The notes beneath the pieces were generated by a model that saw only the letters and a list, made by a program, of their open reading frames with translations, was not told the DNA's origin and did not search any database. Below are positions 20,514 through 38,721 of a DNA stretch of 39,279 bases, piece by piece. Each line of letters starts with the position of its first letter. Position 1 is the first letter of the stretch. A program made the position numbers and the translations under genes. The DNA comes from Betaproteobacteria bacterium (lineage in GTDB: Bacteria; Pseudomonadota; Gammaproteobacteria; Burkholderiales; SG8-41): assembly GCA_028292225.1 (NCBI GenBank), contig JAQGMV010000194.1, forward strand, positions 1 through 39,279, in the 5' to 3' direction.

Positions 20514-21485
20514 ATGCCCTATGCCATACGCATTCATGAGAACGGCGGCCCCGAAAAGCTGCGGTGGGAGGAAGTCGAAGTCGCGAAACCGGGGCCCGGG
20601 GAAGTCCGCGTGCGCAACACCGCGGTCGGTCTGAACTACATCGACACCTATCACCGCTCCGGGCTCTATCCGATGCCGATGCCGATGACACTCGGCTCCG
20701 AGGGCGCAGGCGTCGTGGAAGCGGTCGGTCCCCGCGTCAAGGAATTCAAGGTCGGAGATCGCGTCGCGTATGCGCAGCCGATCGGCGCGTACGCCGAAGT
20801 CCTGATTCGCCCCGTCGCGAGGCTCGTCAAGATTCCGTCGGGAATCGACGACAGGACTGCCGCGGCGATGATGCTCAAAGGCATGACCGCGTGGTATCTG
20901 TGCCGCCGCACCTACAAGGTCAAGAAAGGCGACACGATCGTCGTGCACGCGGCCGCGGGCGGGGTCGGGCAGATCCTCTGCCAGTGGACGAAGTATCTGG
21001 GCGCGACGGTCATCGGCACCGTCGGAAGCGAAGAGAAAGCGGCGCTCGCGAAAAAGGCGGGCTGCAAGCACGTGATCGTGACCTCGAACGAGAAGACTTC
21101 CGAGCGGGTGAAAGCGATCACCAAAGGCAAAGGTGTTCCGGTCGTGTACGACGGCGTGGGCAAGGACACCTTCATGGATTCGCTCGACTGCCTCTCCCCT
21201 CTCGGCCTCATGGTGAGCTTCGGCAACGCGTCAGGCCCGGTGCCTCCGGTCAACATCGGCATCCTCGCGACCAAAGGGTCGCTCTTCCTGACCCGGCCCA
21301 CGCTCGTGAACTACACCTCGACCCGCGATGACCTCCTCACCGCTGCGCGCGAGTTGTTCAGCGTGGTGAAGAAAGGCGTGGTCAAGATCAAGGTCAACCA
21401 GACTTATCCGCTGCGCAACGCAGCGCAGGCGCACGCCGATCTGGAGAGCCGCAAGACGACCGGTTCGACTGTTCTGCTCCCATAG
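20514..21485 (+). CDS. NADPH:quinone oxidoreductase-type MDR (Qor-like)
   Basis: Medium-chain dehydrogenase motifs: GPGEVRVRNTAVGLNYIDTYHRSGLYP, HAAAGGVGQILCQWTKYLGATVIGTVGSEEK. Confidence 0.92.
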   Translation: MPYAIRIHENGGPEKLRWEEVEVAKPGPGEVRVRNTAVGLNYIDTYHRSGLYPMPMPMTLGSEGAGVVEAVGPRVKEFKVGDRVAYAQPIGAYAEVLIRPVARLVKIPSGIDDRTAAAMMLKGMTAWYLCRRTYKVKKGDTIVVHAAAGGVGQILCQWTKYLGATVIGTVGSEEKAALAKKAGCKHVIVTSNEKTSERVKAITKGKGVPVVYDGVGKDTFMDSLDCLSPLGLMVSFGNASGPVPPVNIGILATKGSLFLTRPTLVNYTSTRDDLLTAARELFSVVKKGVVKIKVNQTYPLRNAAQAHADLESRKTTGSTVLLP

Positions 21486-21495
21486 GGGAGCCCGC

Positions 21496-22725
21496 GTGCT
21501 TCCACTCGATTCCTTACCCGCGCCTTCGAAGGGCGCGCCGATCGCGCTGCTCGACGGCGTGCGCGTGATCGACCTCACCACTTCGATCGCCGGACCGTAC
21601 GCGACGATGCTGCTCGCCGACATGGGCGCGGACGTCGTCAAGATAGAGCGTCCCGGGTCGGGAGACGACAGCCGCGCGTGGGGTCCGCCGTTCCTCGACG
21701 GCGAATCGCTGTGGTTCCTGAGCGTCAACCGCAACAAGCGCAGCGTGACGCTCGATTACACCAGCGGCGCGGGACGTGAAGTCCTGCGCGACCTGGTGCG
21801 CACGGCCGATGTCGTCGTCGTCAATCTCGTGGATCGCGTGCAGAAAAAACTCGGCGTCGATTACGCGAGCCTCAAAGCGCTGAAGCCGGATCTCGTGCAC
21901 GTCTCGATCAGCGGCTTCGGCCTCGAAGGCGCGCGCCGCGATTTTCCCTGCTACGACTTGATCGCCGAAGGCTACAGCGGCGTGATGGACCTGACCGGCG
22001 AAGCCGGCAGCCCGCCGCAGAAAGTCGGCACCCCCGCAGCCGACCTCATCGCGGGCATGGATGCATCGTACGCGACCGTGGCGGCGCTTTTCGAGCGCTG
22101 CCGCAGCGGCCGAGGCCACGCGATCGACATTTCGATGATCGACAGCATGACCCGCTTCATGTCGCCTCGCATCGTGCCGTATCTCGGCTCGGGCGAGGTC
22201 CCCAAGCGCACCGGCGCGCGCGACAGTGTGATCGCCGTCTACCAGGTGTTCGAAACCCGGGATGATCCGATCACCCTCGGCCTCGGCAACGATGCGATCT
22301 GGAAGCGCTTCTGGGAAGCCGTCGGCCGGCCGGAGCTCGGGCGCGATGCGCGCTACGCGAGCAACGCCGATCGTCGCGCCGCGCGTGAGCAGATCGTGGC
22401 CGAGATCCAGAGCGTGCTGGCCACCCGATCGCGCGACGAATGGCTGAAGCTCTTCGTCGAAGCGAAAGTGCCCGCAGGCCCGGTCAACCGGGTCGACCAG
22501 GTGAGCAGTGACCCCGAGCTCGTCTCCCGCGGTCTTTTCTATGCCGATACCGCCGGCGGCCGGCGCATTCCCCAGGTCGGGTTGGGAATAGGCGTCGACG
22601 GCGGATGCGCGAGCTATCGCACGCCCCCGCCGCGCCTGGGCGAGCACACCGGTGAGGTGTTGCGAGAAGGGCTCGGTTACGATGATGCGGGGATCGAGCG
22701 GTTGCGCAAAGAGAAGGTAATCTGA
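21496..22725 (+). CDS. CaiB/BaiF family CoA-transferase (class III), GTG start
   Basis: LDGVRVIDLTTSIAGPYATMLLADMGADVVKIERPGSGDDSR; NRNKRSVTLD; PVNRVDQV. Confidence 0.94.
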   Translation: MLPLDSLPAPSKGAPIALLDGVRVIDLTTSIAGPYATMLLADMGADVVKIERPGSGDDSRAWGPPFLDGESLWFLSVNRNKRSVTLDYTSGAGREVLRDLVRTADVVVVNLVDRVQKKLGVDYASLKALKPDLVHVSISGFGLEGARRDFPCYDLIAEGYSGVMDLTGEAGSPPQKVGTPAADLIAGMDASYATVAALFERCRSGRGHAIDISMIDSMTRFMSPRIVPYLGSGEVPKRTGARDSVIAVYQVFETRDDPITLGLGNDAIWKRFWEAVGRPELGRDARYASNADRRAAREQIVAEIQSVLATRSRDEWLKLFVEAKVPAGPVNRVDQVSSDPELVSRGLFYADTAGGRRIPQVGLGIGVDGGCASYRTPPPRLGEHTGEVLREGLGYDDAGIERLRKEKVI

Positions 22726-22729
22726 AAAC

Positions 22730-23509
22730 ATGACTTACGAAACCATCCTCTACCGCGAAGAAGGTGCCGTCGGCTGGCTCACCCTCAACCGTCCCGACGA
22801 CGGCAACATGTTCACGCCCCGGATGTGCCACGACCTCCGCGACTGCATCAACGAGGTGAGGCGCGAGACCCGCACCCGGGTGCTCGTCATCACCGGAGCG
22901 GGCGAGAAGTTCTTCTGCATCGGCGGGCGCAAGGAAGGGATGGAGGACAGCACGCTGTATGCGGGCATGCTGCCGACGCTCGAGATCTACGAGAGCATCG
23001 AGCGCCTGCAAAAACCGGTGATCGCGTCGGTCAACGGGTTCGCGGTGGGCGGCGGGCAGGTGCTGCAGGTGATGTGCGATCTCACGATCGCCAAGGAGAG
23101 CGCGATCTTCAGGCAGGTCGGCCCGATGATGGGAAGCTTCGACGCGGGCTACGGCACGTGGTATCTCGAAGACCTCGTCGGCAAGAAAAAAGCCAAGGAG
23201 ATGTGGTTCCTCAACCCGAAGCTCACCGCGCGCGAAGCGCTCGACATCGGGCTCATCAACAAAGTCGTCCCCGACGAGAAGCTCGAGGAAGAGACCCGCG
23301 CGATGGCGAACGCGGTCGCCGAGCGCGGCGCTTTCGCGCTGGCGGCGATCAAAGGCGCGTTCGTGGCGCGCCACGGCGGCGTGTCGGGGCTCTCGCGCAT
23401 GTCGCACGACATGCTGCTGCGGCTCTATCTGGACACCGACGAATCGAAAGAGCTCGGCGAGGCTTTCCGCGGCAGGCGCACGCCCGACCCCGACAAGTTC
23501 GGGCATTGA
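22730..23509 (+). CDS. Crotonase-fold hydrolase/synthase of the MenB/BadI type
   Basis: Crotonase motifs plus AIFRQVGPMMGSFDAGYGTWYLEDLVGKKKAKEMWFL and C-terminal LYLDTDESKELGEAFRGRRTPDPDKF, characteristic of MenB/BadI rather than generic enoyl-CoA hydratases. Confidence 0.82.
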   Translation: MTYETILYREEGAVGWLTLNRPDDGNMFTPRMCHDLRDCINEVRRETRTRVLVITGAGEKFFCIGGRKEGMEDSTLYAGMLPTLEIYESIERLQKPVIASVNGFAVGGGQVLQVMCDLTIAKESAIFRQVGPMMGSFDAGYGTWYLEDLVGKKKAKEMWFLNPKLTAREALDIGLINKVVPDEKLEEETRAMANAVAERGAFALAAIKGAFVARHGGVSGLSRMSHDMLLRLYLDTDESKELGEAFRGRRTPDPDKFGH

Positions 23510-23522
23510 TGTCGAGAGGCAC

Positions 23523-25187
23523 GTGAGCACGCTCCTCACCCTTCACGATCCCGGCATCGCGAGGCGCTACTACGCCGAAGGGCACTGGCGTGAGGACACC
23601 CTGTATTCACTGCTGCGACATCATGCGAAGGCGCGGCCGCAGGCGTATGCGCTGCGGGACGGCCGCCGCCGGCTGACGTGGCGCGCGCTGGCGCAGTGGG
23701 TCGACGCGCTCGCGGCGGACCTGCACGCGGGCGGGTTGAAGCGAGGCCAGCGCGTCTCGGTGTGGCTGCCGAACAGGGTCGAGGCGGTCGTCGTGCTGCT
23801 CGCGTGCTCGCGCAACGGCTACGTCTGCAATCCGTCGCTGCACCAGAACTATCGCGTCGGCGAAGTCATTCAGCTCACGGAGCGCATCCGGAGCGCGGCG
23901 CTTTTTGCGCAGCCGGGTTACGGCTCCGATGCGGCGCAGAACGACGTTTTCGCGGCCGCTCGGGCGCTGCCTTCGATGAAGCGGGTGTATGCGCTCGCGC
24001 CGCTCACTCGCGCCGCGAGCGTTCCCGAAGGCTGCCATGCGTTTCCGGCGTCCGAGGGGGAATGCGGCGCGCTGCCCCCGGCCGACGATAACCCGGACAA
24101 GATCGCTTATCTCGCGTTCACCTCCGGGACGACCGGCACGCCCAAAGGCGTCCTGCACTCCGACAACACGCTGCTCGCCAACGGCCGCGCAATGGTCGAC
24201 GACTGGCGACACGATGAGCGCACGGTGCTTTTCAGTCACAGCCCGCTGTCGCATCATATCGGCACGGTGGCGATCGAGCAGAGCCTCGTCGCCGGCTTCG
24301 AAGTGGTCGTGAACGATCTGCCCGACGGCATGAAGCCCCTGGACAGGATCGTGGAGAGCGGCGCGACTTACGTGATGGGCGTTCCGACGCACGCGATGGA
24401 CATCCTCGCCGACATGAAGCGCCGGGGCATGGAGAAGCTCGGCCGCGTCACGGTCTTCTACATGGCGGGCTCTGTCATTCCGCCCGAGACCGCGCGAGCG
24501 TTCCTCGGTATGGGTGTGAAGCCGCTGAACGTGTACGGCATGACCGAGAACGGATCGCACCAGTACACCCTTCCCGACGACGATGCGCAGACGATCACTT
24601 CGACGTGCGGCAAAGCCTGCAGCGGCTACGAGACCCGGATCTGGGATCAGGAAAACGGCGACCGGGAAGCGGTGACCGGCGAGATCGGCGAGATCGGCAC
24701 GCGCGGCGCGCTACTGACCCTCGGTTACTTCGACAACCAGAGCGCGACCGAGAGCTCGTTCAACGCCGGCGGCTGGTTCATGAGCGGCGATCTAGGTAGG
24801 CTGGATGCGCAGGGCAATCTCACGATCGTCGGCCGCATGAAAGACCTCATCATCAGGGGCGGGCACAATATCCATCCTTCGCATATCGAAAATCTCGTGC
24901 TCAAACACGCTGCGGTGCTGAAAGCCGCCGCATATCCGGTTGCCGACGCGAGGCTGGGCGAGCGCGTGTGCCTCGCGGTCATTGCCCGCGACGGCGCGGC
25001 GCTCGAGGCCATGGCATTGCTCGACCACCTGCACACGGAAGGGCTTTCGAAGTACGACATGCCCGAGTACTTCATCGCGATGGACGCGTTCCCGCTGACG
25101 CCGAGCGGGAAGATACTCAAGCGCGAGCTGGTGGAGATGACCAGGAGCGGACGCATCAGGCCGGAGCCGGTGAGGTGGAGCGGATGA
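23523..25187 (+). CDS. AMP-forming acyl-CoA ligase
   Basis: AMP-binding motif LAFTSGTTGTPKGVLHS, YGMTENGS, GWFMSGDLGRLDAQGNLTIVGRMKDLIIRGGHNIHP, PLTPSGKILKREL. Confidence 0.94.
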   Translation: MSTLLTLHDPGIARRYYAEGHWREDTLYSLLRHHAKARPQAYALRDGRRRLTWRALAQWVDALAADLHAGGLKRGQRVSVWLPNRVEAVVVLLACSRNGYVCNPSLHQNYRVGEVIQLTERIRSAALFAQPGYGSDAAQNDVFAAARALPSMKRVYALAPLTRAASVPEGCHAFPASEGECGALPPADDNPDKIAYLAFTSGTTGTPKGVLHSDNTLLANGRAMVDDWRHDERTVLFSHSPLSHHIGTVAIEQSLVAGFEVVVNDLPDGMKPLDRIVESGATYVMGVPTHAMDILADMKRRGMEKLGRVTVFYMAGSVIPPETARAFLGMGVKPLNVYGMTENGSHQYTLPDDDAQTITSTCGKACSGYETRIWDQENGDREAVTGEIGEIGTRGALLTLGYFDNQSATESSFNAGGWFMSGDLGRLDAQGNLTIVGRMKDLIIRGGHNIHPSHIENLVLKHAAVLKAAAYPVADARLGERVCLAVIARDGAALEAMALLDHLHTEGLSKYDMPEYFIAMDAFPLTPSGKILKRELVEMTRSGRIRPEPVRWSG

Positions 25188-25248
25188 GGGTGACTGCTGC
25201 AGTGTCGTCAGTCCGGCGCAGGCCGGAATCCAGGAAGACAAGCTGACC

Positions 25249-26016
25249 ATGAGTATCGAGCTCACGCGCATCGATGAATTCGCGCTCATCACCCTGAACC
25301 GTCCCGACGCGCTCAACGCGCTGTCGTTCGCGCTGATCGCCGACCTCGGCCGCGCGCTAGACGAAGTGGCGCAGTCGGATGCGCGCGCGCTGCTGATCAC
25401 GGGCGCAGGACCAAAAGCGTTCTGCGCAGGCGCAGACATCACGGAGCTCACCGGCCGACCGCTCGTCGAGCACAAACGCGGTGCCGAGCTCGGCCAGGCC
25501 GTGTTCTCGAAAATCGGGCGCCTGCCGTTTCCATCGGTTGCGATCATCAACGGCTACGCTTTCGGCGGCGGCCTCGAGATGGCGCTCGCGTGCACGTTTC
25601 GGATCGCGACGCCGAACGCGAAGATGGGTCTCCCCGAGATCAAGCTCGGCCTTATTCCGGGTTACGGCGGCACGCAACGACTGCCCCGCGCCGTAGGCGA
25701 AGCGCGCGCGATGGAGATGATATTGACCGGACGCACCCTCGACGCCGAGGAAGCGCACCGAATCGGCCTCGTTCAGCGCATCGTCCAGGGCGAAGCGCTG
25801 GCGGCCGGTGTGGCTTATGCGCGGGAATTCTCCGGCTACAGCCTGCCTGTCCTCGGCTTCGCCCGCGAGGCGGTGAGCCGCGCGCTCGATACGCCGCTCC
25901 ACGAGGGCTTTAAGATCGAAGCTGACCTGTCGACGCTCGCGTTCCAGACCAAAGATGCGGCGGAAGGGATGGCGGCGTTCGTGCAGAAGCGGAAGGCGAA
26001 ATTCGACGATGAATAG
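25249..26016 (+). CDS. Enoyl-CoA hydratase/isomerase
   Basis: LNRPDALNALSFAL, GAGPKAFCAGADITEL, INGYAFGGGLEMALACTFRIATPNAKMGLPEIKLGLIPGYGGTQRL. Confidence 0.95.
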   Translation: MSIELTRIDEFALITLNRPDALNALSFALIADLGRALDEVAQSDARALLITGAGPKAFCAGADITELTGRPLVEHKRGAELGQAVFSKIGRLPFPSVAIINGYAFGGGLEMALACTFRIATPNAKMGLPEIKLGLIPGYGGTQRLPRAVGEARAMEMILTGRTLDAEEAHRIGLVQRIVQGEALAAGVAYAREFSGYSLPVLGFAREAVSRALDTPLHEGFKIEADLSTLAFQTKDAAEGMAAFVQKRKAKFDDE

Positions 26017-26755
26017 TCGTGAACAACGAACGATAGCGGTGACCGGCGCGAGCCGGGGTATCGGCGCGGCGATCGCGCTCGAGCTGGCGAGGCGCGGTTT
26101 TCGCGTGGCGTGTCTCACGCGCAAAGGCGCAGGGCCGGAAGCGGCGGCCGCTGCCGGGCTCGCGGGGCGTTTCGTCAATCGCGCGTGCGACGTGAACGAT
26201 GAAGCGAGCATGCGCGCAGCGCTCGCGGCGGTGGCGGCCGAAGGGGTGCTGCACGGGCTCGTGAATAACGCCGGGATCCATCTCGATGCGCCGAGCCAGG
26301 AGATGGAGACCGCGATGTACGAGCGCGTCATGCAGACGAACGCGACCGCGGTCTTCACGACGTGCCGCGAAGCTTATCCGTACCTGGCCCGCGCCGGCGG
26401 CGCGACGATCGTGAACATCGGCTCGTTCTTCGACAAGGTCGGCGTGAAGCGCAACCTCGCGTACTGCGCATCGAAAGCGGCGGTCGGCGCGATGACGCGC
26501 TGCCTCGCGGTCGAGTGGGCGTCCAAAGGCATACGCGTGATCGACGTCGCCCCGGGTTACGTGGTGACGGACCTGAACCGCGAATCGCTCGAGCGCGGTC
26601 CGGTTCGCGAGTACATCGACAAGCGCATTCCCGGGCGACGGCCCGGCACGGCTGAAGAGGTCGCAAAGCTCGTCGCTTCGATGTACTCCGAAGACATCCC
26701 GTTCCTGACCGGCGAGACGATCTACATCGACGGCGGGCAGGGGATGGCGCATTGA
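26009..26755 (+). CDS. SDR family oxidoreductase
   Basis: AVTGASRGIGAAIA, NNAG, YCASKAAVG; ATG overlaps the upstream hydratase stop. Confidence 0.93.
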   Translation: MNSREQRTIAVTGASRGIGAAIALELARRGFRVACLTRKGAGPEAAAAAGLAGRFVNRACDVNDEASMRAALAAVAAEGVLHGLVNNAGIHLDAPSQEMETAMYERVMQTNATAVFTTCREAYPYLARAGGATIVNIGSFFDKVGVKRNLAYCASKAAVGAMTRCLAVEWASKGIRVIDVAPGYVVTDLNRESLERGPVREYIDKRIPGRRPGTAEEVAKLVASMYSEDIPFLTGETIYIDGGQGMAH

Positions 26756-26757
26756 TG

Positions 26758-26857
26758 ACGCAAACGGCCAGCGGTAAACGGTGAACCGCCGGATGAGCTG
26801 CACGTCCTCCAGCCACGGCGTCGACACGGTTTACCGTTCACCGCTTACCGTTTACGG
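26758..26857. repeat. Intergenic inverted repeat built of 7-nt units (element 1)
   Basis: Left arm CAGCGGTAAACGGTGAACC, right arm GGTTTACCGTTCACCGCTTACCGTTTACGG; right arm runs into the SD GGAGG of the next gene. Confidence 0.8.
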
Positions 26858-26863
26858 AGGTCC

Positions 26864-28033
26864 ATGAAAGTCTTCCACCGCCTCGATGCGACCGTCCGGT
26901 TCAGCGACGAGGAACGCATGCTGCTCGAAGCCGTGCGCAACCTCGCGCGCGATCGCATCGCGCCGCGCGCGGCCGAGTACGACCGCAGCGGCGAGTTCCC
27001 GTGGGACAACATCCGGGCGATCAATGCGCTCGGGCTGAATGCGATGTTCATCCCCGAGGCTTACGGCGGCGCTCCGCTGTCCTACGCCGCGTATCTCGAA
27101 AGTGTGCGCGAAATATCCAGGGCGTGCGCGTCGACCGGTGTGATCTGGGCGACCAACTTCCACGCAATCAAGCCGCTCATCGATTTCGGAAGCGAGGAGC
27201 AGAAGCGCCGGCTGCTGCCGGCGATGGCCGAAGGCGGTCTCGCGTCGCTCACGATCACCGAGCCCACCGCAGGCTCGGATGCGACCGGCATGAAGACCGA
27301 GTTCAGGCCCGAGGGCGGCGAGATCATCGTCACCGGGACCAAGACGTTCATCACGAACGGCGCGCATGCGGACCTGTTGATGCTCTTCGGAAAATGGAGC
27401 GAAATCGGGGACAGCCGCAAGTCGATCTCGGTGCTGGTGCTCGAGAAAGGCACGCCGGGCCTGACGGTGGTGCGTGAAGAAGACAAGATGGGCCTGCGCG
27501 CCTCCAGCACCGCGACACTCGCGTTCGACGGTTGCCGTGTGCCTCGCGCGAACCTGCTGGGCGCGCCCGGAGACGGGTTGAAAATACTCCTCGCTTCGCT
27601 CAACAGGTCCCGTCCCAGCGTCGCGGCCCACGCGCTCGGCATCGCGCGCGCGGCCTTCGAGGATGCCGTGCAGTACATCAACGACCGCCGCCAGTCAGGG
27701 CAGCGCATCGTCGAATTTCAGGGCATACAGTTCATGCTCGCGGACATGGCGACCGATCTCGCGATGTGCGAGGCTTGGCTCTGGCACGTCGCGCGGCTGA
27801 TCGACGGCAATGCGCCCGATTTCGGCGTCGAAGCGTCGATGCTCAAGATGCGCGCGTCGGATCTGGCGATGCGCATCGCGACCGATGCGGTCCAGTTGCA
27901 CGGCGGTTACGGTTATTGCAAGGATTACCGCGTCGAGCGGCTCATGCGCGATGCGAAGATCACGCAGATCTGGGAAGGGACGAACCAGATCCACAGGCAG
28001 TTCATCGGACGAAGTTTTGTCAGAAAGCCGTAA
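26864..28033 (+). CDS. Acyl-CoA dehydrogenase
   Basis: SLTITEPTAGSDATGMKT, EDKMGLRASSTATLAFDGCRVPRANLLG, QLHGGYGYCKDYRVERLMRDAKITQIWEGTNQIHR. Confidence 0.96.
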   Translation: MKVFHRLDATVRFSDEERMLLEAVRNLARDRIAPRAAEYDRSGEFPWDNIRAINALGLNAMFIPEAYGGAPLSYAAYLESVREISRACASTGVIWATNFHAIKPLIDFGSEEQKRRLLPAMAEGGLASLTITEPTAGSDATGMKTEFRPEGGEIIVTGTKTFITNGAHADLLMLFGKWSEIGDSRKSISVLVLEKGTPGLTVVREEDKMGLRASSTATLAFDGCRVPRANLLGAPGDGLKILLASLNRSRPSVAAHALGIARAAFEDAVQYINDRRQSGQRIVEFQGIQFMLADMATDLAMCEAWLWHVARLIDGNAPDFGVEASMLKMRASDLAMRIATDAVQLHGGYGYCKDYRVERLMRDAKITQIWEGTNQIHRQFIGRSFVRKP

Positions 28034-28124
28034 ATGGTTAATGGTGAATCGTAAATCGTTGACGGCCGCCGCGCGGCGGGCGTCCATCAGCAGCCACGAC
28101 TTACCATTTACCATTTACCGTTCA
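28031..28124. repeat. Intergenic inverted repeat built of 7-nt units (element 2)
   Basis: TAAATGGTTAATGGTGAATCGTAAATCGT versus ACGACTTACCATTTACCATTTACCGTTCA; nested GC-rich hairpin GACGGCCGCC-GCGC-GGCGGGCGTC in the loop. Confidence 0.82.
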
Positions 28125-28135
28125 CGAAGAACACC

Positions 28136-29011
28136 ATGACCCCAATCAAAACCGTAGGCGTCGCCGGCAGCGGCACGATGGGCGCGGGCATCGCGATCGT
28201 CGCCGCGCGGGCGGGCTTTCGTACCATCGTGTACGACACGCGCGAGGACGCACTGGCCCGCGCGCGCAAACAAACAGAAGGCTTTTTCGCAAAATCGGTC
28301 GAGCGCAGGAAGCTCACCGTAGGCCAGGTCGACACGATCCTCGGCAATATGTCGGCCACGACCGACATCGGCGGGCTCAAAGCGTGCGACATCGTGATCG
28401 AAGCGGTGTTCGAGGATCTCAAAGTGAAGCACGCGGTGTGCGCAGCGCTCGACGACGTGTGCCCGCCGCATACGCTCTTCGCGTCGAACACCTCGACGCT
28501 TTCGATCACCGAAATCGCAGCGGGCTCGGGCCGCGAGGATCGCTTCGTCGGGATGCATTTCTGCCTCCCGGCGCAGCTCATGAAGCTCGTCGAAATGTCG
28601 CCGGGCTTGAGGACGAGCGAATCCTCGTTCGATGCGGCGTGGGATTTCTGCAAGGCGATGGGGCAGGTGCCTGTGAGGACGAAGGACAATCCCGGATTCA
28701 TCCTCAACTACTTCCTGGTGCCTTTCAACAATGACGCGATCCGCCTGGTCGAAGCGGGCGTGGCGGCGCCGGCGGACATCGATCGCGCGATCAAGACCGC
28801 GCTCGGCTACCCGATGGGGCCGCTCGAGCTCCTCGATCTGGTCGGCCTCGACACCCACCTGCTCGTCGCCGAAGCGCTGTATGCGTCGACCCACGAGCCT
28901 CGCGCTGCCGTTCCGGCGCTGGTGAAGCGGATGATCGCGGCCGGCCAGCTCGGCCGAAAGACAGGGCAGGGTTTCTATACCTACGGCGGCGCCGCGATGT
29001 TCGGCGGCTGA
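28136..29011 (+). CDS. 3-hydroxyacyl-CoA dehydrogenase
   Basis: Rossmann VAGSGTMGAGIA; FASNTSTLSIT; NPGFILNYFLVPFNNDAIRLVEAG; ALGYPMGPLELLDLVGLD. Confidence 0.95.
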   Translation: MTPIKTVGVAGSGTMGAGIAIVAARAGFRTIVYDTREDALARARKQTEGFFAKSVERRKLTVGQVDTILGNMSATTDIGGLKACDIVIEAVFEDLKVKHAVCAALDDVCPPHTLFASNTSTLSITEIAAGSGREDRFVGMHFCLPAQLMKLVEMSPGLRTSESSFDAAWDFCKAMGQVPVRTKDNPGFILNYFLVPFNNDAIRLVEAGVAAPADIDRAIKTALGYPMGPLELLDLVGLDTHLLVAEALYASTHEPRAAVPALVKRMIAAGQLGRKTGQGFYTYGGAAMFGG

Positions 29012-29042
29012 AATCGGGGAAATCGGGGACAGACCCCGATTT
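29011..29042. repeat. Short palindromic element AAATCGGGG-AAATCGGGG-ACAGA-CCCCGATTT
   Basis: Perfect 9-bp inverted repeat (29020-29028 / 29034-29042) preceded by a direct copy of the left arm. Confidence 0.7.
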
Positions 29043-29129
29043 ACATCCGTTCGTGCCGAGCAGCGATAGCGGCCGTCGAAGCATGAACGGCACGGCGCGA
29101 GCCGCGAACAGCGAGACAAGGGACCCAAA

Positions 29130-29783
29130 ATGTTCTACCAGTTGATCGATACAGGTAACAGCCGCTCGTTTTCGGCGCGGCATGCGCTGCTGGAGAGCGC
29201 GCAGACCGACGGCGATGTCGTGATCATCATCGGCGAGAAAGTCGGCCACGCACTGCAGACGCTCGACGGGAGTGAGCGCAAGACCGCAGTTCTGATCGAG
29301 CTCGGCGCCGAAAGCCTGGGCATGCATACCGGCGAGAGCCGCGGAGCCGAAGGATCGAATCTGCTCGGCTTCTCGCGCTTCCGGCTCGGCACCGACGAGC
29401 CGACGCGGCTCGTCGAAGTCGTGCGTCAGCCGGGTTCCCCGGCTACGGCGCTCGCCGCAGCGAAGGAGATCTTCGAAGGCGCCGGACTCGAGATGGCGGT
29501 GTGCGGAGACTTCGACGGGCGCATCGTCGACCGGCTCGTGCGGCCGTACTACAACGCTGCGCTGAAGCGCCTTGACGAAGGCCTGGCCACTGCCGACGAC
29601 CTCGACATGACGCTGAAGCTCGGCCTCGGCTATCCCGAAGGCCCCATCGCGCTGCTAGAGCGCACCGGGCTCGAGCATCACTACGACATGACCCACGCCC
29701 TTTTCGAAGCGACCGGGGATCCGGCGTACGCGCCTGCCCGTCGCGCTCGCGTTGCCAAGCTCAGAGCTGAAACCAAAGCTTGA
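29130..29783 (+). CDS. 3-hydroxyacyl-CoA dehydrogenase C-terminal-domain protein lacking a recognisable NAD-binding motif
   Basis: C-terminal FDGRIVDRLVRPYYNAALKRLDEGLATADDLDMTLKLGLGYPEGPIALLERTGL matches the 3HCDH C-terminal domain; N-terminal ~100 aa has no GxGxxG. Confidence 0.72.
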   Translation: MFYQLIDTGNSRSFSARHALLESAQTDGDVVIIIGEKVGHALQTLDGSERKTAVLIELGAESLGMHTGESRGAEGSNLLGFSRFRLGTDEPTRLVEVVRQPGSPATALAAAKEIFEGAGLEMAVCGDFDGRIVDRLVRPYYNAALKRLDEGLATADDLDMTLKLGLGYPEGPIALLERTGLEHHYDMTHALFEATGDPAYAPARRARVAKLRAETKA

Positions 29784-29863: not shown

Positions 29864-29882
29864 CGATGCCCTTAAGCCTCAT

Positions 29883-31025: not shown

Positions 31026-31097
31026 AGCGCGGACCGGATATCATTCACGGTTTGCCGCTCACCCCTTCACCCTCCACGCAGCAGCAGGAGCCACGCA

Positions 31098-32093
31098 TTG
31101 AAAGCATTACTCGTACGCGAACACGGTCCCATCGAAAGCCTCACCCTCGCCGAAGCGCCCGATCCCGCACCCAAACCCGGGGAAGTCGTGGTCGACGTGC
31201 GCGCGGCGAGCATCAATTTTCCGGACCTGCTCGTCATCGGCGGGACTTACCAGAAACTGCCGCCGCGGCCGTTCAGCCCCGGTAAGGACTTTGCGGGCGT
31301 CGTCGCTGCGGTCGGTGAAGGCGTCACGCTGTGCAAGCCGGGCGATCGCGTCACCGCGCAGATCGAATACGGCGCGTACGCCGAGAAATGCGCCGTGCGG
31401 GAAGCGAACTGCCACGTGATTCCCGACAGCATGAGCTACGCCGACGCCGCAGCGATGGGACTCACCTATCTCACGGCGCATTTCTCGCTCGTCGAGCGTG
31501 CGAGATACCAGCCCGGTGAAGTGGTGCTGGTCAACGGCGCCGCGGGCGGCGTCGGTGTCGCGGCGGTGCAGATCGCCAAGGCGCTCGGCGCGACGGTCGT
31601 GGCGAGCGTCAGCAGTGAGGACAAAGCGGCGCTGGCGAAAGCGAACGGCGCCGATCACATCGTCCGTACCGACGTGCCGGACATTCGCGAATCGTTCAGG
31701 AAGCAGGTCTACGACGCAGTGGGCAAGCGCGGCGTCGACATCATCGTCGATCCCGTCGGCGGCGACGTCTTCGACGCGAGCTTTCGCACGATCGCGTGGT
31801 CGGGGCGGGTCGTCATCGTCGGGTTCGCCGAAGGCCGCATCCCGCAGGTGAAGGCCGGCATCCTGCTCGTGAAGAACATCTCGCTCATCGGGTTGCAATG
31901 GAGCGACTACCGCGACCGCGAGCCGCAGAAGGTGCGTGCGGTTCAGCAGGAGCTCTTCCGCATGTACGAGCAGGGCAGGATCAAGCCTCACGTCATGGCC
32001 GCCTACGCGATCGAAGAGCACCAGAAAGCGCTCGCGGTGGTGCGTGACCGCAAAGTGGTCGGCAAGGTGTTGCTGCTCATGGGCGAGCAGTGA
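31098..32093 (+). CDS. NADPH:quinone oxidoreductase-type MDR, TTG start
   Basis: MKALLVREHGPIESLTLAEAPDPAPKPGEVVVDVRAASINFPDLLVIGG; NGAAGGVGVAAVQIAKALGATVVASVSSEDK. Confidence 0.93.
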   Translation: MKALLVREHGPIESLTLAEAPDPAPKPGEVVVDVRAASINFPDLLVIGGTYQKLPPRPFSPGKDFAGVVAAVGEGVTLCKPGDRVTAQIEYGAYAEKCAVREANCHVIPDSMSYADAAAMGLTYLTAHFSLVERARYQPGEVVLVNGAAGGVGVAAVQIAKALGATVVASVSSEDKAALAKANGADHIVRTDVPDIRESFRKQVYDAVGKRGVDIIVDPVGGDVFDASFRTIAWSGRVVIVGFAEGRIPQVKAGILLVKNISLIGLQWSDYRDREPQKVRAVQQELFRMYEQGRIKPHVMAAYAIEEHQKALAVVRDRKVVGKVLLLMGEQ

Positions 32094-32221: not shown

Positions 32222-32950
32222 ATGGGACGTATAGGCCTGTTGGTGCCGTCATCCAACACGACAGTCGAGCCCGAGTTCTATCGCGCTCTGCCCCGCGGCG
32301 TGACGCTGCACACCGCGCGGCTGTTTCTCACGCGCATCACGCCCGACGCCATACTCGGCATGGTGGAGGACATGGAGAAGCAGGCGAAGCTCCTCGCCTC
32401 CGCCGACGTCGATGTGATCGTGCTCGGTGCGACCGCGCCCAGCTTTCTCAACGGACTCGGCTACGACCGTGAGCTGATCGCCAAGATCGAGAGCGTAACC
32501 GGTAAACCCGCAACCACGACGTCGACCGCTCTGGTCGAAGCCATACGCCACGTGGGTGCGAAGCGAGTGGTGCTGGGCTCGGCGTACACCGAGCAGGTGA
32601 ACGGCATCGCCGGCGCCTTCCTCGAAGCGAGCGGGATCAAAGTGGCCGGCATGGCGGGCCTGTCGCTGGTCGACAATCTCGTCGTCGGCAGACTCTCGCC
32701 GGACACCGCTTACGATCTCGCGATGAAAGTGAACCGCGACGATGTCGACGCGATCGTGCTCTCGTGCACCAACTGGCAGACGATGGACGCCATCGAGCGC
32801 ATCGAGCGCGATACCGGAAAACCGGTCATATCGACGACGCAGGCGAGCATCTGGGCCGCGTTGCGCGCGATCGGCAGCGTCGAGAGCATTCCCGGTTATG
32901 GGCGGCTCCTGCGGGAGCTGGCACCCGCGGACACTGCCCGAGCCGCCTAA
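32222..32950 (+). CDS. Maleate isomerase / arylmalonate decarboxylase superfamily protein, single catalytic Cys
   Basis: GRIGLLVPSSNTTVEPEF; VIVLGATAPSF in place of the first Cys motif; AIVLSCTNWQT second Cys retained; TTQASIWAALRAIG. Confidence 0.85.
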   Translation: MGRIGLLVPSSNTTVEPEFYRALPRGVTLHTARLFLTRITPDAILGMVEDMEKQAKLLASADVDVIVLGATAPSFLNGLGYDRELIAKIESVTGKPATTTSTALVEAIRHVGAKRVVLGSAYTEQVNGIAGAFLEASGIKVAGMAGLSLVDNLVVGRLSPDTAYDLAMKVNRDDVDAIVLSCTNWQTMDAIERIERDTGKPVISTTQASIWAALRAIGSVESIPGYGRLLRELAPADTARAA

Positions 32951-32968: not shown

Positions 32969-33730
32969 ATGTACGGATGGCGTGGACGTATCGGACTGCT
33001 CGTACCCTCGATCAATACGACGATGGAACCCGAATTCTGGCGAATCGCGCCGGAAGGTGTTTCCGTCCACAGCGCGCGGATCGCAGGCGGACGCCACGGC
33101 ACGCCCGACGAGCTGCGCAGCATGGAGAACGCGAGCAAAAAGGCGGCTGAAGATGTCGCGATGGTCGAGCCCGACGTCGTCGTATACGGCTGCACCAGCG
33201 GGAGCTTCTTCGAAGGCCCCGAATGGAACCGGAAGATCTGTGAGCAGCTCACCGCGATCACCAGGGCGCCGACCGTCACGACCGCAGGCGCAATGGCCGC
33301 GTGTCTGCTGGCCGGCGGCCATAAAAAAGTCGATGTGGTGACGCCGTATGTCGAGCTCACCAACGAGCGCCTGAAACAGTTCCTCAAAGCGCACGGCGTC
33401 GACGTGGTCAAGCTCGGCACTTTCGACATGCTCGACATGTTCGACCACGCGAAGATCCTGCCCGAAGAGATTTACCGCAAGGTGAAGGAGATCACGACGC
33501 CCGATGCGGATGCGGTCTTCATCGCGTGCACCCAGCTGCGGTCGCTGGAGGTGGTCGACATGCTCGAGCGCGATCTGGGAAAACCGGTGTACACCGCAGT
33601 GCAGGCGTCGGCCTGGCAGGCGTATGAAGCGATGGGCGTCGACCCGAAGATCACGAATTGCGGAAGCCTGCTGCGGCGGCTCTCCGAGCCGGGTGCTGCG
33701 AAAGCGGCGCCGATGCGGCGCTCCGCGTAA
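32969..33730 (+). CDS. Maleate isomerase / Asp-Glu racemase superfamily protein, two catalytic Cys
   Basis: GRIGLLVPSINTTMEPEFWR; VVVYGCTSGSF; AVFIACTQLRS. Confidence 0.87.
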   Translation: MYGWRGRIGLLVPSINTTMEPEFWRIAPEGVSVHSARIAGGRHGTPDELRSMENASKKAAEDVAMVEPDVVVYGCTSGSFFEGPEWNRKICEQLTAITRAPTVTTAGAMAACLLAGGHKKVDVVTPYVELTNERLKQFLKAHGVDVVKLGTFDMLDMFDHAKILPEEIYRKVKEITTPDADAVFIACTQLRSLEVVDMLERDLGKPVYTAVQASAWQAYEAMGVDPKITNCGSLLRRLSEPGAAKAAPMRRSA

Positions 33731-33733
33731 GCG

Positions 33734-35257
33734 TTGTCCGGGCAGCTACAGATCACCGAAGCTGACGTCGTCGTCGTCGGCGGCGGCGGTTCAGGACTTG
33801 CGGCCGCGTCGGAGGCGGCGCGGCTCGGCAGGAGCGTCATCCTGCTCGAGAAAAACCCGCGCACCGGCGGCACGACCTCGTGGTCGGTCGGCTCGGTGAC
33901 CGCGACCAACACGCCGCACCAGAAGCGCGCGGGAATCCAGGACAGCCCGCAGGCGCATTTCGAGGACCTCGCCGCGCATGCGGGCGCGCTCGCGCCGCGC
34001 GACAACCTCGCGCTGCGACGCATCCTCGTCGACAACACGACCGACATGCTCGAATGGCTCATGCGGCTCGGTGTCGTCTTCGTCGGACCGATGCCCGAGC
34101 CGCCGCATCGCTATCCTCGCATGCACAACGTGGTGCCGAACTCGAAGTCATTCGCCTACCACCTCACGCGCCACTGCCGCGACCTCGGGGTCGACATCCG
34201 TGTCGACACGTCGATCGAGCGCCTGATCGAAGAGAACGGCCGCGTCACATCGGTCGAAGCGAAGGACGCTCACGGCGCGCGAGAAATCTTCCGCGCACGC
34301 GGCGCCGTGGTTCTCGCCGCCGGCGATTACAGCGGCGGCAGCGACATCAAGGCGCAGGTCGCGAGCCCCGACGTCGTCGACGTCGAAGCGGTCAACGCGA
34401 CGAGCACCGGCGACGGACATCGCATGGCGCAGGCGCTGGGCGCGACCATCGTCAACGGCGACATCGTGCGCGGACCGATCATGCGGTTCATACCGCCTGC
34501 ACAATCGAACCTGATCCAGAAGCTTCCGCCGTTGAAAACGGTGGCTCGTTTAATCGCGTGGGCGATGAACGCGATGCCGCAATGGCTGCTGCGGCCTTTC
34601 CTGATGAGCTTTCTGACCACTGCCCTCGGCCCGTCGGCCGACCTGTTCAGGGAAGGCGCGATTCTCGTGAACGATCGCGGCGAGCGCTTCACCGACGAGC
34701 TCGGCAAACCGGCCTACGACGTCGCAAAACAGCCCGACCGCCTCGCGTACATCGTTTTCGACGACGCCATCGCAGAGAAATTCGAGGCGTGGCCGTACTT
34801 CGTGTCGACCGCGCCCGGCGTGGCTTACGCGTATCTCAAGGACTACCGGCGCAACCGCCGCGACATCTATCACCAGGCGGACACGATCCCGGGGCTCGCG
34901 GCGTCGATGCGGGTCCCGGCGGACCGGCTCGTGACTATGCTCAACCGTTACAACGGCGGCGAGCGCTTTGATCGCCCGGCGCTTTCGCGCAAGCCCTATT
35001 ACGCGCTGGGGCCGGTGAAGAGCTACGTCGTCTTCACCGACGGTGGCCTGAAAGTGAGCGAGCGGCTCGAAGTGCTGCGCGCCGACGGTTCAGTCATCCC
35101 GGGCCTTTATGCGGCCGGCTCGACCGGCCAGGGCGGGCTGCTGCTCGAAGGACACGGACACCATCTGGGATGGGCATTCATCTCGGGGCGCATCGCCGGC
35201 CGTCACGCGGCTTTCGAAGTGCCTCTAAAAAAACGCAGTGATGCGGCGACCCATTAA
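33734..35257 (+). CDS. FAD-dependent oxidoreductase of the fumarate reductase / 3-ketosteroid dehydrogenase superfamily, TTG start
   Basis: ADVVVVGGGGSGLAAASEAARLGRSVILLEKNPRTGGTTSWSVG; LAAGDYSGG; GLYAAGSTGQGGLLLEGHGHHLGWAFISGRIAG. Confidence 0.9.
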   Translation: MSGQLQITEADVVVVGGGGSGLAAASEAARLGRSVILLEKNPRTGGTTSWSVGSVTATNTPHQKRAGIQDSPQAHFEDLAAHAGALAPRDNLALRRILVDNTTDMLEWLMRLGVVFVGPMPEPPHRYPRMHNVVPNSKSFAYHLTRHCRDLGVDIRVDTSIERLIEENGRVTSVEAKDAHGAREIFRARGAVVLAAGDYSGGSDIKAQVASPDVVDVEAVNATSTGDGHRMAQALGATIVNGDIVRGPIMRFIPPAQSNLIQKLPPLKTVARLIAWAMNAMPQWLLRPFLMSFLTTALGPSADLFREGAILVNDRGERFTDELGKPAYDVAKQPDRLAYIVFDDAIAEKFEAWPYFVSTAPGVAYAYLKDYRRNRRDIYHQADTIPGLAASMRVPADRLVTMLNRYNGGERFDRPALSRKPYYALGPVKSYVVFTDGGLKVSERLEVLRADGSVIPGLYAAGSTGQGGLLLEGHGHHLGWAFISGRIAGRHAAFEVPLKKRSDAATH

Positions 35258-35279
35258 CGCGAGTGCGCGCAGGCGATGG

Positions 35280-35345: not shown

Positions 35346-35401
35346 TTAGCGCAGTCGTCGCACTCAAAACTCGCAGTCGATAGAACAAGAGAGCATCTGC
35401 A

Positions 35402-35914
35402 ATGATTTTCATGAGTCAAAGCGGCATCACCGACCACACCCGCGAAAGCGACTGGGACCGCTGGTATGACGAGCACCTGCGTATCATGGCGAGCGTTCCG
35501 GGAATCAGCTCGGCGCAGCGCTTCAAGTGCGCCGATTCGAGCCATCCGCCGTCGCTCGCGATGTACAGCGTCGCGTCCGCGTCGGTGTTCGAGGATGCCT
35601 GCTATCTCAAGGTCCGCGGCATGGGTGAGTGGCTGCCGCTGATCGATCGCGCACACTACAAACGCAACCTTTTCGACGGTGCGCAGCGCGCGCCGGAGGT
35701 GCGCGACGGCGAGCTCCTGCTCATCGCCGACCGCGACAAGCCGGAGATCGGGCGCGCTGGAATCGAGTGGAAGTGGCTCGAGTGCGTCGGAATCGATCGC
35801 AGCACCCCGCACCGCGGGATTGCGGTCGTGCCGCCACGGGTGGCCGACAGGGCGCGGCGGCATGCGGGCATCGCGGTATACGTCCCCGCGACGCCGTGCC
35901 ATAAGCCGCATTAA
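35402..35914 (+). CDS. EthD/dimeric alpha-beta barrel-like protein
   Basis: ESDWDRWYDEHLRIMASVPGISSAQRFK, the W-Y-[DN]-x-H-[IL/V]...VPG pattern of EthD-like ferredoxin-fold proteins. Confidence 0.65.
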   Translation: MIFMSQSGITDHTRESDWDRWYDEHLRIMASVPGISSAQRFKCADSSHPPSLAMYSVASASVFEDACYLKVRGMGEWLPLIDRAHYKRNLFDGAQRAPEVRDGELLLIADRDKPEIGRAGIEWKWLECVGIDRSTPHRGIAVVPPRVADRARRHAGIAVYVPATPCHKPH

Positions 35915-35920
35915 CCCCGG

Positions 35921-36973
35921 ATGGCCGCGCGTCACGCGCTCGTGGCCGGTGCGACAGGAATCGTCGGGACACGTGTCGTCGAGCGGTTCGCCGAAGACGG
36001 GTGGCGGGTGACCGGCCTGTGCCGGCGGCCGCCGGCCGACCCGCAGGGGCGCGTATATGTCGGCGTCGATTTGACAGACGCCGCCGACTGCATCTCGAAG
36101 CTCGCACCGATGAGCGACGTGACGCACATCGTTTACGCCGCGCGCTACGACCATCCGGAAGGCGAATCCGAGGCGGTCGGCACCAATGCTTCGATGCTGC
36201 GCAATCTCATCGACGCGGTGGAGCCTGCCTCGAGAGCGCTCGAGCACGTCCATCTCGTACACGGGACCAAATACTACGGGCACATGCTCGGCCCGCTCGC
36301 AGTGCCGCTGACCGAAGAGAGCCCGCGCGCACGCGTTGCGAACTTCTACTTCGAGCACGAAGACTGGATCCGCGGCCGCCGGCGCGGGAAACGATGGACC
36401 TTCAGCACTTCACGGCCGCACACTTTCTGCGATGACTACGCCGATGAGCCGCGCAGCGTCGCGCTGCTGATCGCCGTGTACGCGTCCATCGCACGGGCGT
36501 GTGACGAGCCGCTCGCCTTTCCCGGAAGCGACAAAAGCTTTCACGCGCGCACCCAGTTCACGCACGTGCCTCTGCTTGCGAAGGCGATACGCTGGATGTC
36601 CACCGAGCCGTGCGCCGCTGACGAGTCATACAACGTCACGAATGGCGACAGCCCGAGCTGGTCGGCACTGTGGCCGCGCTTTGCAGACTATTTCGGCGTC
36701 GAGGCGGGTGGGCCTGGGGCATTCCGGCTGGCAGACTACGTGGCGGACAAGGAGAGCGTGTGGCAGGCGCTCGTGCGCCGCTGCGATTTGCAGCGTATAG
36801 CGCTCAGCGAGCGAGTGCTCTGGCCTTACGCCGATTACGTCTTCAAACCGGAATGGGATATCGTTTCCGATACGTCCAAAGCGCGCCGCGGCGGGTTCAC
36901 GCCCCGGATCGACAGCGCTGAAATGTTTCTCGCATCATTCGACCGCTTTCGCGAAAACGGCATCACTCCCTGA
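35921..36973 (+). CDS. PRISE-type (progesterone 5-beta-reductase / iridoid synthase-like) SDR
   Basis: GATGIVGTRVVERF; HVHLVHGTKYYGHMLGP; RVANFYFEHEDWI; TFSTSRPHTFCD; YNVTNGDSPSWSALWPRFADYFGVE; C-terminal SFDRFRENGITP. Confidence 0.78.
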   Translation: MAARHALVAGATGIVGTRVVERFAEDGWRVTGLCRRPPADPQGRVYVGVDLTDAADCISKLAPMSDVTHIVYAARYDHPEGESEAVGTNASMLRNLIDAVEPASRALEHVHLVHGTKYYGHMLGPLAVPLTEESPRARVANFYFEHEDWIRGRRRGKRWTFSTSRPHTFCDDYADEPRSVALLIAVYASIARACDEPLAFPGSDKSFHARTQFTHVPLLAKAIRWMSTEPCAADESYNVTNGDSPSWSALWPRFADYFGVEAGGPGAFRLADYVADKESVWQALVRRCDLQRIALSERVLWPYADYVFKPEWDIVSDTSKARRGGFTPRIDSAEMFLASFDRFRENGITP

Positions 36974-36983
36974 GGAGATGACA

Positions 36984-37952
36984 ATGAGCAGGTGGGTTCG
37001 TCTTGCGGCGATAGCCGCGCTGTCTACGCCGGTCGCGGGCGTCGCGTGGTGCCAGTCCTACCCCGTAAAGCCTGTGCGGTGGATCGTGCCGTGGCCGCCG
37101 GGCGGAGGCGCCGACACCCTGACGCGCATCGTCAGTCCGAAGCTCTCCGAGGCCCTCGGTCAGCAGATCATCGTCGACAATCGCGGCGGTGCGGCGGGCA
37201 ACATCGGCGCCGAGCTCGCGGCGAAATCGCCGCCTGACGGTTACACGATCGCTTTCGCTTACTCGGGCACGCATTCGATCAATCCGAGCATCTACAGCAG
37301 GATGGCTTTTCGCGAGAGCGATTTCACTCCGGTGATCTGGCTCTCGTCGGTGCCGCAGGTCGTCGTCGTCCATCCCTCGCTCCCGGTGAAGAACATCAAG
37401 GACCTGATCGCGCTGGACAAGGCGAAGCCGGGGCAGCTTTCGTACGGATCGAGCGGGAGCGGCGCGATCAACCATCTGACGGGCGAGCTTTTCAACAGCA
37501 TGACCGGGACAAAGCTCGTCCACGTGCCTTACAAAGGCGGCGGGCCCGCCGCCGTTGCGCTGCTCTCGGGCGAGATCGGAATGATTTTCGGAGAGCCCGC
37601 TTCGATCGCGCAGCAGGTCAAAGCCGGCAGGCTGAGGGCGGTGGCGGTCACGAGCGCGAAGCGCTCACTGTTTCTGCCCGATCTGCCCACCGTCGCCGAA
37701 TCGGGCGTTCCCGGTTATGAAGTGACTTCGTGGAACGGCGTGCTGGCCCCGGCAGGCACCCCGGCGGAGATCGTGAGGCGACTGAATTCGGACCTCAACA
37801 GGATCATCGCTGCGCCGGACATGACGAAGCGGATGATCGAGTTCGGCTTCGAGCCCGTCGGCGGTCCGCCTGAGAGGTTCGGCGAATTCATCCGCGCCGA
37901 AACGGCGAAATGGGCGCCGGTCGTGAAGAAAGCCGGGGTGAAGGTCGATTGA
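36984..37952 (+). CDS. Tripartite tricarboxylate transporter substrate-binding protein (Bug/TctC family)
   Basis: Signal peptide; YPVKPVRWIVPWPPGGGADTLTRIVSPKLSEALGQQIIVDNRGGAAGNIGAE; LPTVAESGVPGYE. Confidence 0.95.
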   Translation: MSRWVRLAAIAALSTPVAGVAWCQSYPVKPVRWIVPWPPGGGADTLTRIVSPKLSEALGQQIIVDNRGGAAGNIGAELAAKSPPDGYTIAFAYSGTHSINPSIYSRMAFRESDFTPVIWLSSVPQVVVVHPSLPVKNIKDLIALDKAKPGQLSYGSSGSGAINHLTGELFNSMTGTKLVHVPYKGGGPAAVALLSGEIGMIFGEPASIAQQVKAGRLRAVAVTSAKRSLFLPDLPTVAESGVPGYEVTSWNGVLAPAGTPAEIVRRLNSDLNRIIAAPDMTKRMIEFGFEPVGGPPERFGEFIRAETAKWAPVVKKAGVKVD

Positions 37953-37960
37953 TCGAGGCG

Positions 37961-38062
37961 CGTGAACGGTGAACGGTAAGCCGTTCCTCCCGAGCGGGCG
38001 CGGGGCGATAGCGGGCCCATGAGGCGTCGCGGTTCAACGTTTACCGCTGACCGTTTACGAAG
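37961..38062. repeat. Intergenic inverted repeat built of 7-nt units (element 3)
   Basis: CGTGAACGGTGAACGGTAAGCC versus GGTTCAACGTTTACCGCTGACCGTTTACGAAGG, ending at the SD of the next gene. Confidence 0.75.
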
Positions 38063-38070
38063 GAAGCCGG

Positions 38071-38721
38071 ATGTCATCGAACCCCATGGGATTGCTCGTC
38101 GCCGGATTCGATTCCGCCCCGGTGAACCCGGACGAGTTCAACGACTGGTACGACACCGAGCACGTGCCTGAGCGCAGGCGAGTGCCCGGCTTCGTCAATT
38201 GCGAGCGCTGGGTCGGCGCGGAGAATCCCGGGCTCTCGATCGCGACTTACGATCTCGAGTCGCTCGACGTGCTGAAGACCGGCGCGTATCGCGCGATCGC
38301 CGGCGAGAACCTCTCACCATGGTCAAAACGCGTGATCGGCAAAGCGAAGCGCCTCTGCCGTTTCGAAGCGGTGCAGATGCCGCCCGGTGACGTCGTTGCA
38401 CCGGCACAAGCCGGCGGATTGCTGCTCTTCGCGATGAACGTCGCGCCGCAAGCCGAATCCGACTTCAACGCGTGGTACGACGAAGAACACATCCCCCGGC
38501 TGGCGGCCGTAACGGGCTGCCTGTCGGCGCGCCGCTTCACGATCGTCGATGCGGTGAGCGATGGCAGGCATCGATACCTCGCCCTGTACCACCTCAGCTC
38601 ACCCGAGGTGTGCGCGTCGAAAGCGTGGGAAGAAGCGGCGGTAACGCCGTGGACCCGGAAGGTCAGGCCGTTTACGCGCGACCGGATGAGAATCCCGCTG
38701 CGCCGGTACGAGCGCGAATAA
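38071..38721 (+). CDS. Internally duplicated EthD/dimeric alpha-beta barrel-like protein
   Basis: Repeat 1 DEFNDWYDTEHVPERRRVPGFVNCERW; repeat 2 SDFNAWYDEEHIPRLAAVTGCLSARRF. Confidence 0.75.
   Translation: MSSNPMGLLVAGFDSAPVNPDEFNDWYDTEHVPERRRVPGFVNCERWVGAENPGLSIATYDLESLDVLKTGAYRAIAGENLSPWSKRVIGKAKRLCRFEAVQMPPGDVVAPAQAGGLLLFAMNVAPQAESDFNAWYDEEHIPRLAAVTGCLSARRFTIVDAVSDGRHRYLALYHLSSPEVCASKAWEEAAVTPWTRKVRPFTRDRMRIPLRRYERE

Follow-up and report, generated by a model that had tools for sequence, protein, structure and literature searches.

We describe a catabolic acyl-CoA operon in a 39,279-nucleotide stretch of DNA, here called the window, from contig JAQGMV010000194.1 of a betaproteobacterial genome (assembly GCA_028292225.1; 5.4 Mb in 544 contigs). 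Downstream of prfC and a gene for a RecQ-like helicase, 18 genes, named A to R, follow one another on the plus strand at 20514–38721. The A–B, B–C, C–D, E–F, L–M, M–N, O–P and P–Q junctions are gaps of 3–18 bp or overlaps, and the remaining intergenic gaps of the operon measure 41–144 bp. An earlier inspection of the bare DNA, the sequence-only reading, had counted about 17 tightly spaced co-directional genes in this interval, and that description is borne out. The core of the operon consists of the ten genes B–K (21496–32093). B (21496–22725; PF02515, Asp154) encodes a class III CoA-transferase of the CaiB/BaiF family, a candidate for the activation step. C (22730–23509) is a crotonase of the BadI/MenB group, a proposed ring-opening hydrolase. 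D (23523–25187; PF00501) is a class I acyl-CoA ligase, E (25249–26016) an enoyl-CoA hydratase with both catalytic glutamates, E110 and E130, and F (26009–26755), which overlaps the 3' end of E, a FabG-like short-chain dehydrogenase/reductase (SDR) with a Y170/K174 motif. G (26864–28033) is an acyl-CoA dehydrogenase with catalytic Glu371. H (28136–29011; PF02737 and PF00725) and I (29130–29783; matching positions 376–492 of PRK08268) look like the N- and C-terminal halves of a split PaaH-like 3-hydroxyacyl-CoA dehydrogenase. J (29883–31025) is a CaiB/BaiF protein with the H148/D178/E263 triad of alpha-methylacyl-CoA racemases, and K (31098–32093; TIGR02824, 247 bits) is a PIG3-like NADPH reductase of the medium-chain dehydrogenase/reductase (MDR) family. 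Every core enzyme checked keeps intact catalytic residues.

How widely is this arrangement maintained? We sampled 90 loci, namely the best 80 C-bearing loci from a scan of GTDB genome contigs and 10 plasmid loci; all were chosen by crotonase C, the counts are conditional on C, and many of the contigs are incomplete. Of the 90 loci, 63 keep at least six core genes in one unbroken same-strand run that includes C, and 49 keep at least eight. The gene-order comparison that the sequence-only reading had proposed thus reveals a syntenic cluster, beyond what chance would give. Neighbouring pairs recur as BC in 54 loci, CD in 65, DE in 53, EF in 53, FG in 58, GH in 53, HI in 46 and JK in 39, and K is found in 46. 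Several Afipia and Bradyrhizobium copies follow the order D-J-K-B-C-E-F-G-H-I, or the same order without B. The 80 best GTDB loci come from Alpha-, Beta- and Gammaproteobacteria and Myxococcota; the B–K core recurs across the three proteobacterial groups and only partly in Myxococcota. Two relatives of the same genus keep the order prfC-recQ-A to R except for P, and one of them also lacks H and I. Gene A (20514–21485), a QorA-type NADPH:quinone reductase that exceeds its curated cut-off (NF008024, 391 versus 348 bits), lies outside the conserved core and is present in only 15 loci. The family is rare: at an E-value of 1e-90, C is found in none of 399 evenly drawn Pseudomonadota genomes besides its own, and in 14 of the 40 nearest relatives, its own genome counted. 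Plasmid copies occur in Cupriavidus basilensis, Paraburkholderia fungorum, Aminobacter, Celeribacter, Salipiger, Achromobacter and Burkholderia multivorans, and partial versions occur in Ancylobacter. B–K is a self-contained catabolic operon, conserved and often plasmid-borne, in scattered proteobacteria. No published description of this cluster was found in the open-access literature, subscription papers being beyond the search; open-access papers on menthol degradation in Thauera and on what arylmalonate decarboxylase does in nature likewise yielded none. A diverged relative of C (51%) was also seen on pROB02 of Rhodococcus opacus B4 (L121, 14989–15771), where the surrounding actinobacterial cluster includes CoA-transferases of classes I and III and lies near biphenyl genes.

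Crotonase C had been likened to MenB and BadI, and our trees place it there: a group of C, BadI and MenB is supported at 100/98, with the branching order among the three left unsettled, and grouping C with the enoyl-CoA hydratases is rejected (p = 0.011, approximately unbiased test). Within this group the C sequences form their own clade on a long stem (100/100 support), outside the BadI clade. C reaches 243 bits on PRK07396 (MenB), 215 on TIGR03210 (BadI; curated cut-off 467.6) and 212 on TIGR01929 (MenB; cut-off 342.7), all below the curated cut-offs, and about 140 bits or less on hydratase models; proteins of the BadI clade score 424–509 on the BadI model. Gly131, Ser136, Asp138 and Tyr233 of C are kept in 90–91 of 91 sequences and are common to BadI and MenB. 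From the alignments we take Tyr233 to be the equivalent of MenB Tyr258. Ser136 and Asp138 align with MenB residues that include the active-site pair Ser161, located at the substrate, and Asp163, which is catalytically essential (PMC3637252); in type I MenB enzymes bicarbonate acts as the base (PMC3637252). C carries the Ser/Asp pair, the C-terminal Tyr and a Gly at the bicarbonate site, and it lacks both catalytic glutamates of the hydratases, which are present in E, so that an ordinary hydratase was discarded as an identity for C. The clade has hallmarks of its own: GGRK stands where BadI and MenB have GGDQ (R in 77 and K in 89 of 91 sequences), and a Trp follows GYGT. The AlphaFold model of C is of moderate quality (mean predicted local distance difference test score, pLDDT, 76; segments 71–79 and 131–141 poor), and its best matches among solved folds are MenB structures, with a template modelling score of about 0.82. 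Beside BadI and MenB, the C sequences make up a third clade of this crotonase group; C is neither hydratase nor BadI nor MenB.

Conservation of MenB residues and fold raises the idea that C works in biosynthesis, catalysing a Dieckmann condensation in the role of MenB, which we regard as very improbable. The MenB cut-off is missed, menD scores above its cut-off in none of 16 C-carrying genomes versus 7 of 14 control genomes, and the setting, with an acyl-CoA dehydrogenase, a racemase and importers, is catabolic. A menaquinone context, which the sequence-only reading had named as a check on its proposal, was rejected on the menD result. A second BadI/MenB-like paralog in the same genome (G000:C51:10318-11085; L002, L159) scores 238 bits on a MenB model, below cut-off, has a C-terminal extension and adjoins a TctC gene.

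The catalytic Asp154 of B, diagnostic of class III CoA-transferases, is found in 58 of 58 orthologs, and the closest solved structures are CaiB/BaiF proteins and SUGCT. In E, E130 is kept in 66 of 66 sequences and E110 in 63 of 65; the Y170/K174 motif of F is conserved across orthologs; and the catalytic Glu of G is present in 72 of 72. The earlier reading had listed two CoA-transferases and more than one 3-hydroxyacyl-CoA dehydrogenase, and both entries have to be redrawn. J aligns with the mycobacterial alpha-methylacyl-CoA racemase MCR (1x74), its H148, D178 and E263, each in 54 of 54 copies, falling at what we take to be the MCR triad, His126/Asp156/Glu241. Because the full racemase triad is present in all 54 copies we count J as a racemase, and its catalytic residues assign it to the alpha-methylacyl-CoA racemase type and not to the CoA-transferases; B keeps the transferase Asp. 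H retains H141, E153 and N191, each in 57 of 57 orthologs, I has only a C-terminal 3-hydroxyacyl-CoA dehydrogenase domain, and the two genes are adjacent. In one locus (L087) they are fused into 548 residues, a single stretch of which covers PRK08268 4–491, scoring 317 bits against a cut-off of 508 despite the near full-length alignment. H and I look like one split PaaH-type enzyme. The open reading frames of F, J and L, when called from their first start codons (25955, 29850 and 32135), are overlong; orthologs and overlaps suggest that the true starts likely lie at about 26009, 29883 and 32222.

In the sequence-only reading the cluster appeared unregulated. This holds for the window copy, where no regulator, no convincing promoter and no sigma54 promoter were found and sigma70-like sites were not above chance, but not for its relatives. 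There, a sigma54-interacting activator with a Fis-type helix-turn-helix often adjoins the operon, mostly divergently. A near-consensus –24/–12 site, TGGCACG-N4-TTGCW, matched at 11 or more of its 12 positions and no farther than 300 bp from the first gene, precedes the operon in 24 of 27 loci with an adjacent activator versus 8 of 61 without one; Fisher's test gives p = 9e-12, a value that overstates independence, the loci being related by descent. Only about 1.1% of random 470-bp stretches reach this score. The absence of regulator and promoter is local to the window copy, by loss or absence.

Does the operon simply encode a diverged cyclohexanecarboxylate (Bad/Ali) pathway, in which C does the job of BadI on the same substrate? 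The earlier reading had seen a full Bad/Ali-type set here, and the enzyme classes are indeed the same; D and G are somewhat similar to alicyclic-acid enzymes, and 12 of the 16 C-carrying genomes, the host's included, have no strong BadI match. Every orthology cut-off tested fails, however: besides BadI, D scores 268 bits on the AliA model (TIGR03208; cut-off 792.3) and G 155 on the AliB model (TIGR03207; cut-off 575.4), and G also stays below cut-off on the AcrC model (358 bits) and on that of cyclohexane-1-carbonyl-CoA dehydrogenase (305). Proteins scoring 438–476 bits on the BadI model occur alongside C in the other 4 of the 16 genomes, above the cut-off in two. No MarR-type BadR was found beside the window operon, and the relatives have sigma54 activators instead; racemase, CoA-transferase, K and the split PaaH are additional. 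With AliA, AliB and BadI orthology all below cut-offs, we therefore see Bad/Ali-like chemistry rather than the Bad/Ali system, and a diverged version of that pathway appears improbable.

The conserved operon, its enzyme families and catalytic residues, the clade of C and the association of activator with promoter in relatives are the observations from which we infer a substrate class, a ring opening and an order of steps. Our preferred reading, to which we give a probability of roughly 0.58, is that B–K serves the catabolism of a small, probably alpha-substituted alicyclic carboxylic acid through hydrolytic ring opening of a 2-oxo-acyl-CoA. The acid would be imported by a TctC-type system in the window host and by HAAT ABC, TctC or TRAP systems in relatives; carboxylate-type importer genes of these kinds are present, TctC in the window (Q) and HAAT ABC, TctC or TRAP near relatives. 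Ligase D or CoA-transferase B would then form the thioester with CoA, and J may set the configuration next to it by epimerisation. G would put in the 2,3 double bond, E would hydrate it, and F would oxidise the hydroxyl to give the cyclic 2-oxo-acyl-CoA. C, probably using bicarbonate as type I MenB does, would hydrolyse the ring C–C bond by a retro-Dieckmann reaction, releasing an open dicarboxylyl-CoA. H/I and K would then take the product further through beta-oxidation, with the thiolase encoded elsewhere or, in some relatives, next to the operon. On models of alicyclic-acid enzymes D (AliA, 268 bits) and G (cyclohexane-1-carbonyl-CoA dehydrogenase, 305 bits) rise above the noise without reaching the cut-offs, and we count this in favour of an alicyclic substrate.

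Several observations weigh against this pathway. C is only 38–43% identical to BadI and MenB, and with such low identity its substrate could be a 3-oxoacyl-CoA that is acyclic or heterocyclic. The window contains no thiolase, some loci lack E beside C and others lack J, and from a racemase by itself it follows only that an alpha stereocentre is of importance. Alternatively, the operon might degrade a branched acid or a diacid, acyclic in either case, by a thiolase-free beta-oxidation, in which C hydrolyses a linear 3-oxoacyl-CoA in place of the thiolase. In the flanks sampled, a thiolase match was found in 4 of 90 loci, leaving most copies without one, and beta-oxidation of branched or dicarboxylate compounds typically involves a racemase together with a PaaH-like dehydrogenase. 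We nevertheless hold this explanation to be unlikely, if the strongest of the alternatives. To our knowledge, all characterised members of the BadI/MenB branch work in ring closure or opening. Two separate types of hydroxyacyl-CoA dehydrogenase, F and H/I, suit one round on the ring and another on the chain. Finally, thiolases adjoin the operon in Paraburkholderia, Aminobacter and Ancylobacter, that of Paraburkholderia being a curated 3-oxoadipyl-CoA thiolase (L124; 725 versus a cut-off of 597), as expected for a dicarboxylyl-CoA product.

Downstream of the core lie genes that are accessory to the pathway but, judging by their recurrence in relatives, connected with it. L (32222–32950) resembles arylmalonate decarboxylase (AMDase; 109 bits to 2vlb) and has a single Cys211; Ala99 and Cys211 are kept in 8 of 8 sequences, and NF052327 gives 145 bits against the AMDase model cut-off of 225. 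M (32969–33730; 91 bits to 4fq7) is maleate-isomerase-like, with Cys75 and Cys187 both in 18 of 18 sequences. N (33734–35257) is an FAD oxidoreductase from the superfamily of KstD and the fumarate/urocanate reductases; its nearest matches are urocanate reductase and flavocytochrome c, KstD matches more weakly, and orthologs occur in 7 loci. O (35402–35914), a small protein with no Pfam match and orthologs in 15 loci, is considered EthD-like by resemblance to R. P (35921–36973; PF22917) is a PRISE-family enone reductase (170 bits to progesterone 5-beta-reductase 6el3), Q (36978–37952; PF03401, 238 bits) a TctC periplasmic carboxylate receptor, and R (38071–38721; PF14114) a tandem dimeric alpha-beta barrel of EthD/DUF4286 type. 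In fold the model of R (pLDDT 91.6) resembles 2pgc and a protein similar to anthrone oxidase; cofactor-free oxygenases show this fold too, and R may have such a role. All genes from L to R except P recur within Betaproteobacteria. The accessory block diverges from the C genes in L018, L046 and L158, with gene L included, and in L038 and L047 without it; in L152 all genes, P included, are co-directional. Relatives of N and L stand beside the Ancylobacter operon and a relative of P beside that of Cupriavidus. Through these lineage-specific genes, compounds related to the substrate but oxidised or dicarboxylic may enter the pathway. The operon of Cupriavidus is neighboured by a gene resembling type II 3-dehydroquinate dehydratase (L116, 9539–9982), beside PRISE and DUF4286-annotated genes; a reductive shikimate/quinate route, considered on account of this AroQ-like gene, was dropped, AroQ occurring in 1 of 90 loci.

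Between I and J (29784–29863), CACGAAGGA repeats form a near-perfect hairpin of 80 nt (z –12.9), whose repeat unit has one further site in the genome. Intergenic palindromes of TTTACCG/TTCACCG-like heptamers interrupt the operon at 26756–26863, 28034–28135 and 37953–38070; the first two fold better than shuffled sequences, the third does not. A genome-wide search for these intergenic repeat patterns revealed no large family in the host. Elsewhere in the window a cyclic di-GMP-I riboswitch (7890–7976, minus strand, 72 bits) lies between GGDEF/EAL genes at 1334–5900 and 14277–15935, with no long open reading frame directly downstream.

What are the implications of such an operon? Naphthenic acids derived from oil, plant terpenoids and refractory dissolved organic matter are all rich in alicyclic acids, yet few routes for opening their rings are known. 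The enzyme classes listed by the sequence-only reading (ligase, acyl-CoA dehydrogenase, hydratase, SDR, crotonase, 3-hydroxyacyl-CoA dehydrogenase, CaiB/BaiF pair, flavoprotein, PRISE, AMDase/maleate isomerase) are present, and the TctC receptor Q, the EthD-like O (by resemblance) and R (by fold) and the MDR reductases A and K extend its list. Its observation is thus confirmed; its interpretation is partly supported, the proposed catabolic acyl-CoA operon with a route distinct from the classical pathway finding support. More tentatively, C might represent a third functional type among the crotonases that open rings, acting on a substrate of its own. Its pathway would then be mobile, under sigma54 control and not described before, would serve alpha-substituted alicyclic acids of naphthenic-acid, terpenoid or carboxyl-rich alicyclic type, and would have no oxygenase in its core. 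A conserved plasmid operon whose promoter is predicted to be inducible, and which encodes a distinct candidate for the ring opening, offers a direct handle on the substrate via the sigma54 activator.

Our model shares elements with several known systems. The Bad/Ali pathway of Rhodopseudomonas palustris and Aromatoleum sp. CIB (PMC9795900) has the same classes of ligase, acyl-CoA dehydrogenase, hydratase, SDR and BadI-type crotonase, and there too beta-oxidation of a dicarboxylyl-CoA is expected downstream. In Gram-negatives its clusters include a BadR of the MarR type, and their product is pimelyl-CoA (PMC9795900), whereas the operon described here, none of whose tested members reaches the orthology cut-offs, has a sigma54 activator in relatives and adds a racemase, a class III CoA-transferase, a split PaaH and an MDR reductase. 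For the monoterpene ring cleavage (mrc) cluster of Castellaniella defragrans, the proposed steps are hydration of perillyl-CoA, oxidation by an SDR and a ring cleavage of BadI type; its MrcE is truly related to BadI, at 88% (PMC4109377), whereas C is at about 40% to BadI. EchA20, the HIEC-CoA hydrolase of steroid ring D, is a MenB-clustering crotonase that opens its ring by a reverse Dieckmann reaction (PMC5380842); it has about 28% reported identity to MenB and a steroid KstR2 context (PMC5380842). ThnP, encoded in the anaerobic naphthalene operon thn of culture N47, belongs to family I of the transferases and performs an intramolecular CoA transfer (PMC11659651). Lastly, J has its His/Asp/Glu triad at the same positions as mycobacterial MCR (1x74), and sits in a dedicated proteobacterial catabolic operon.

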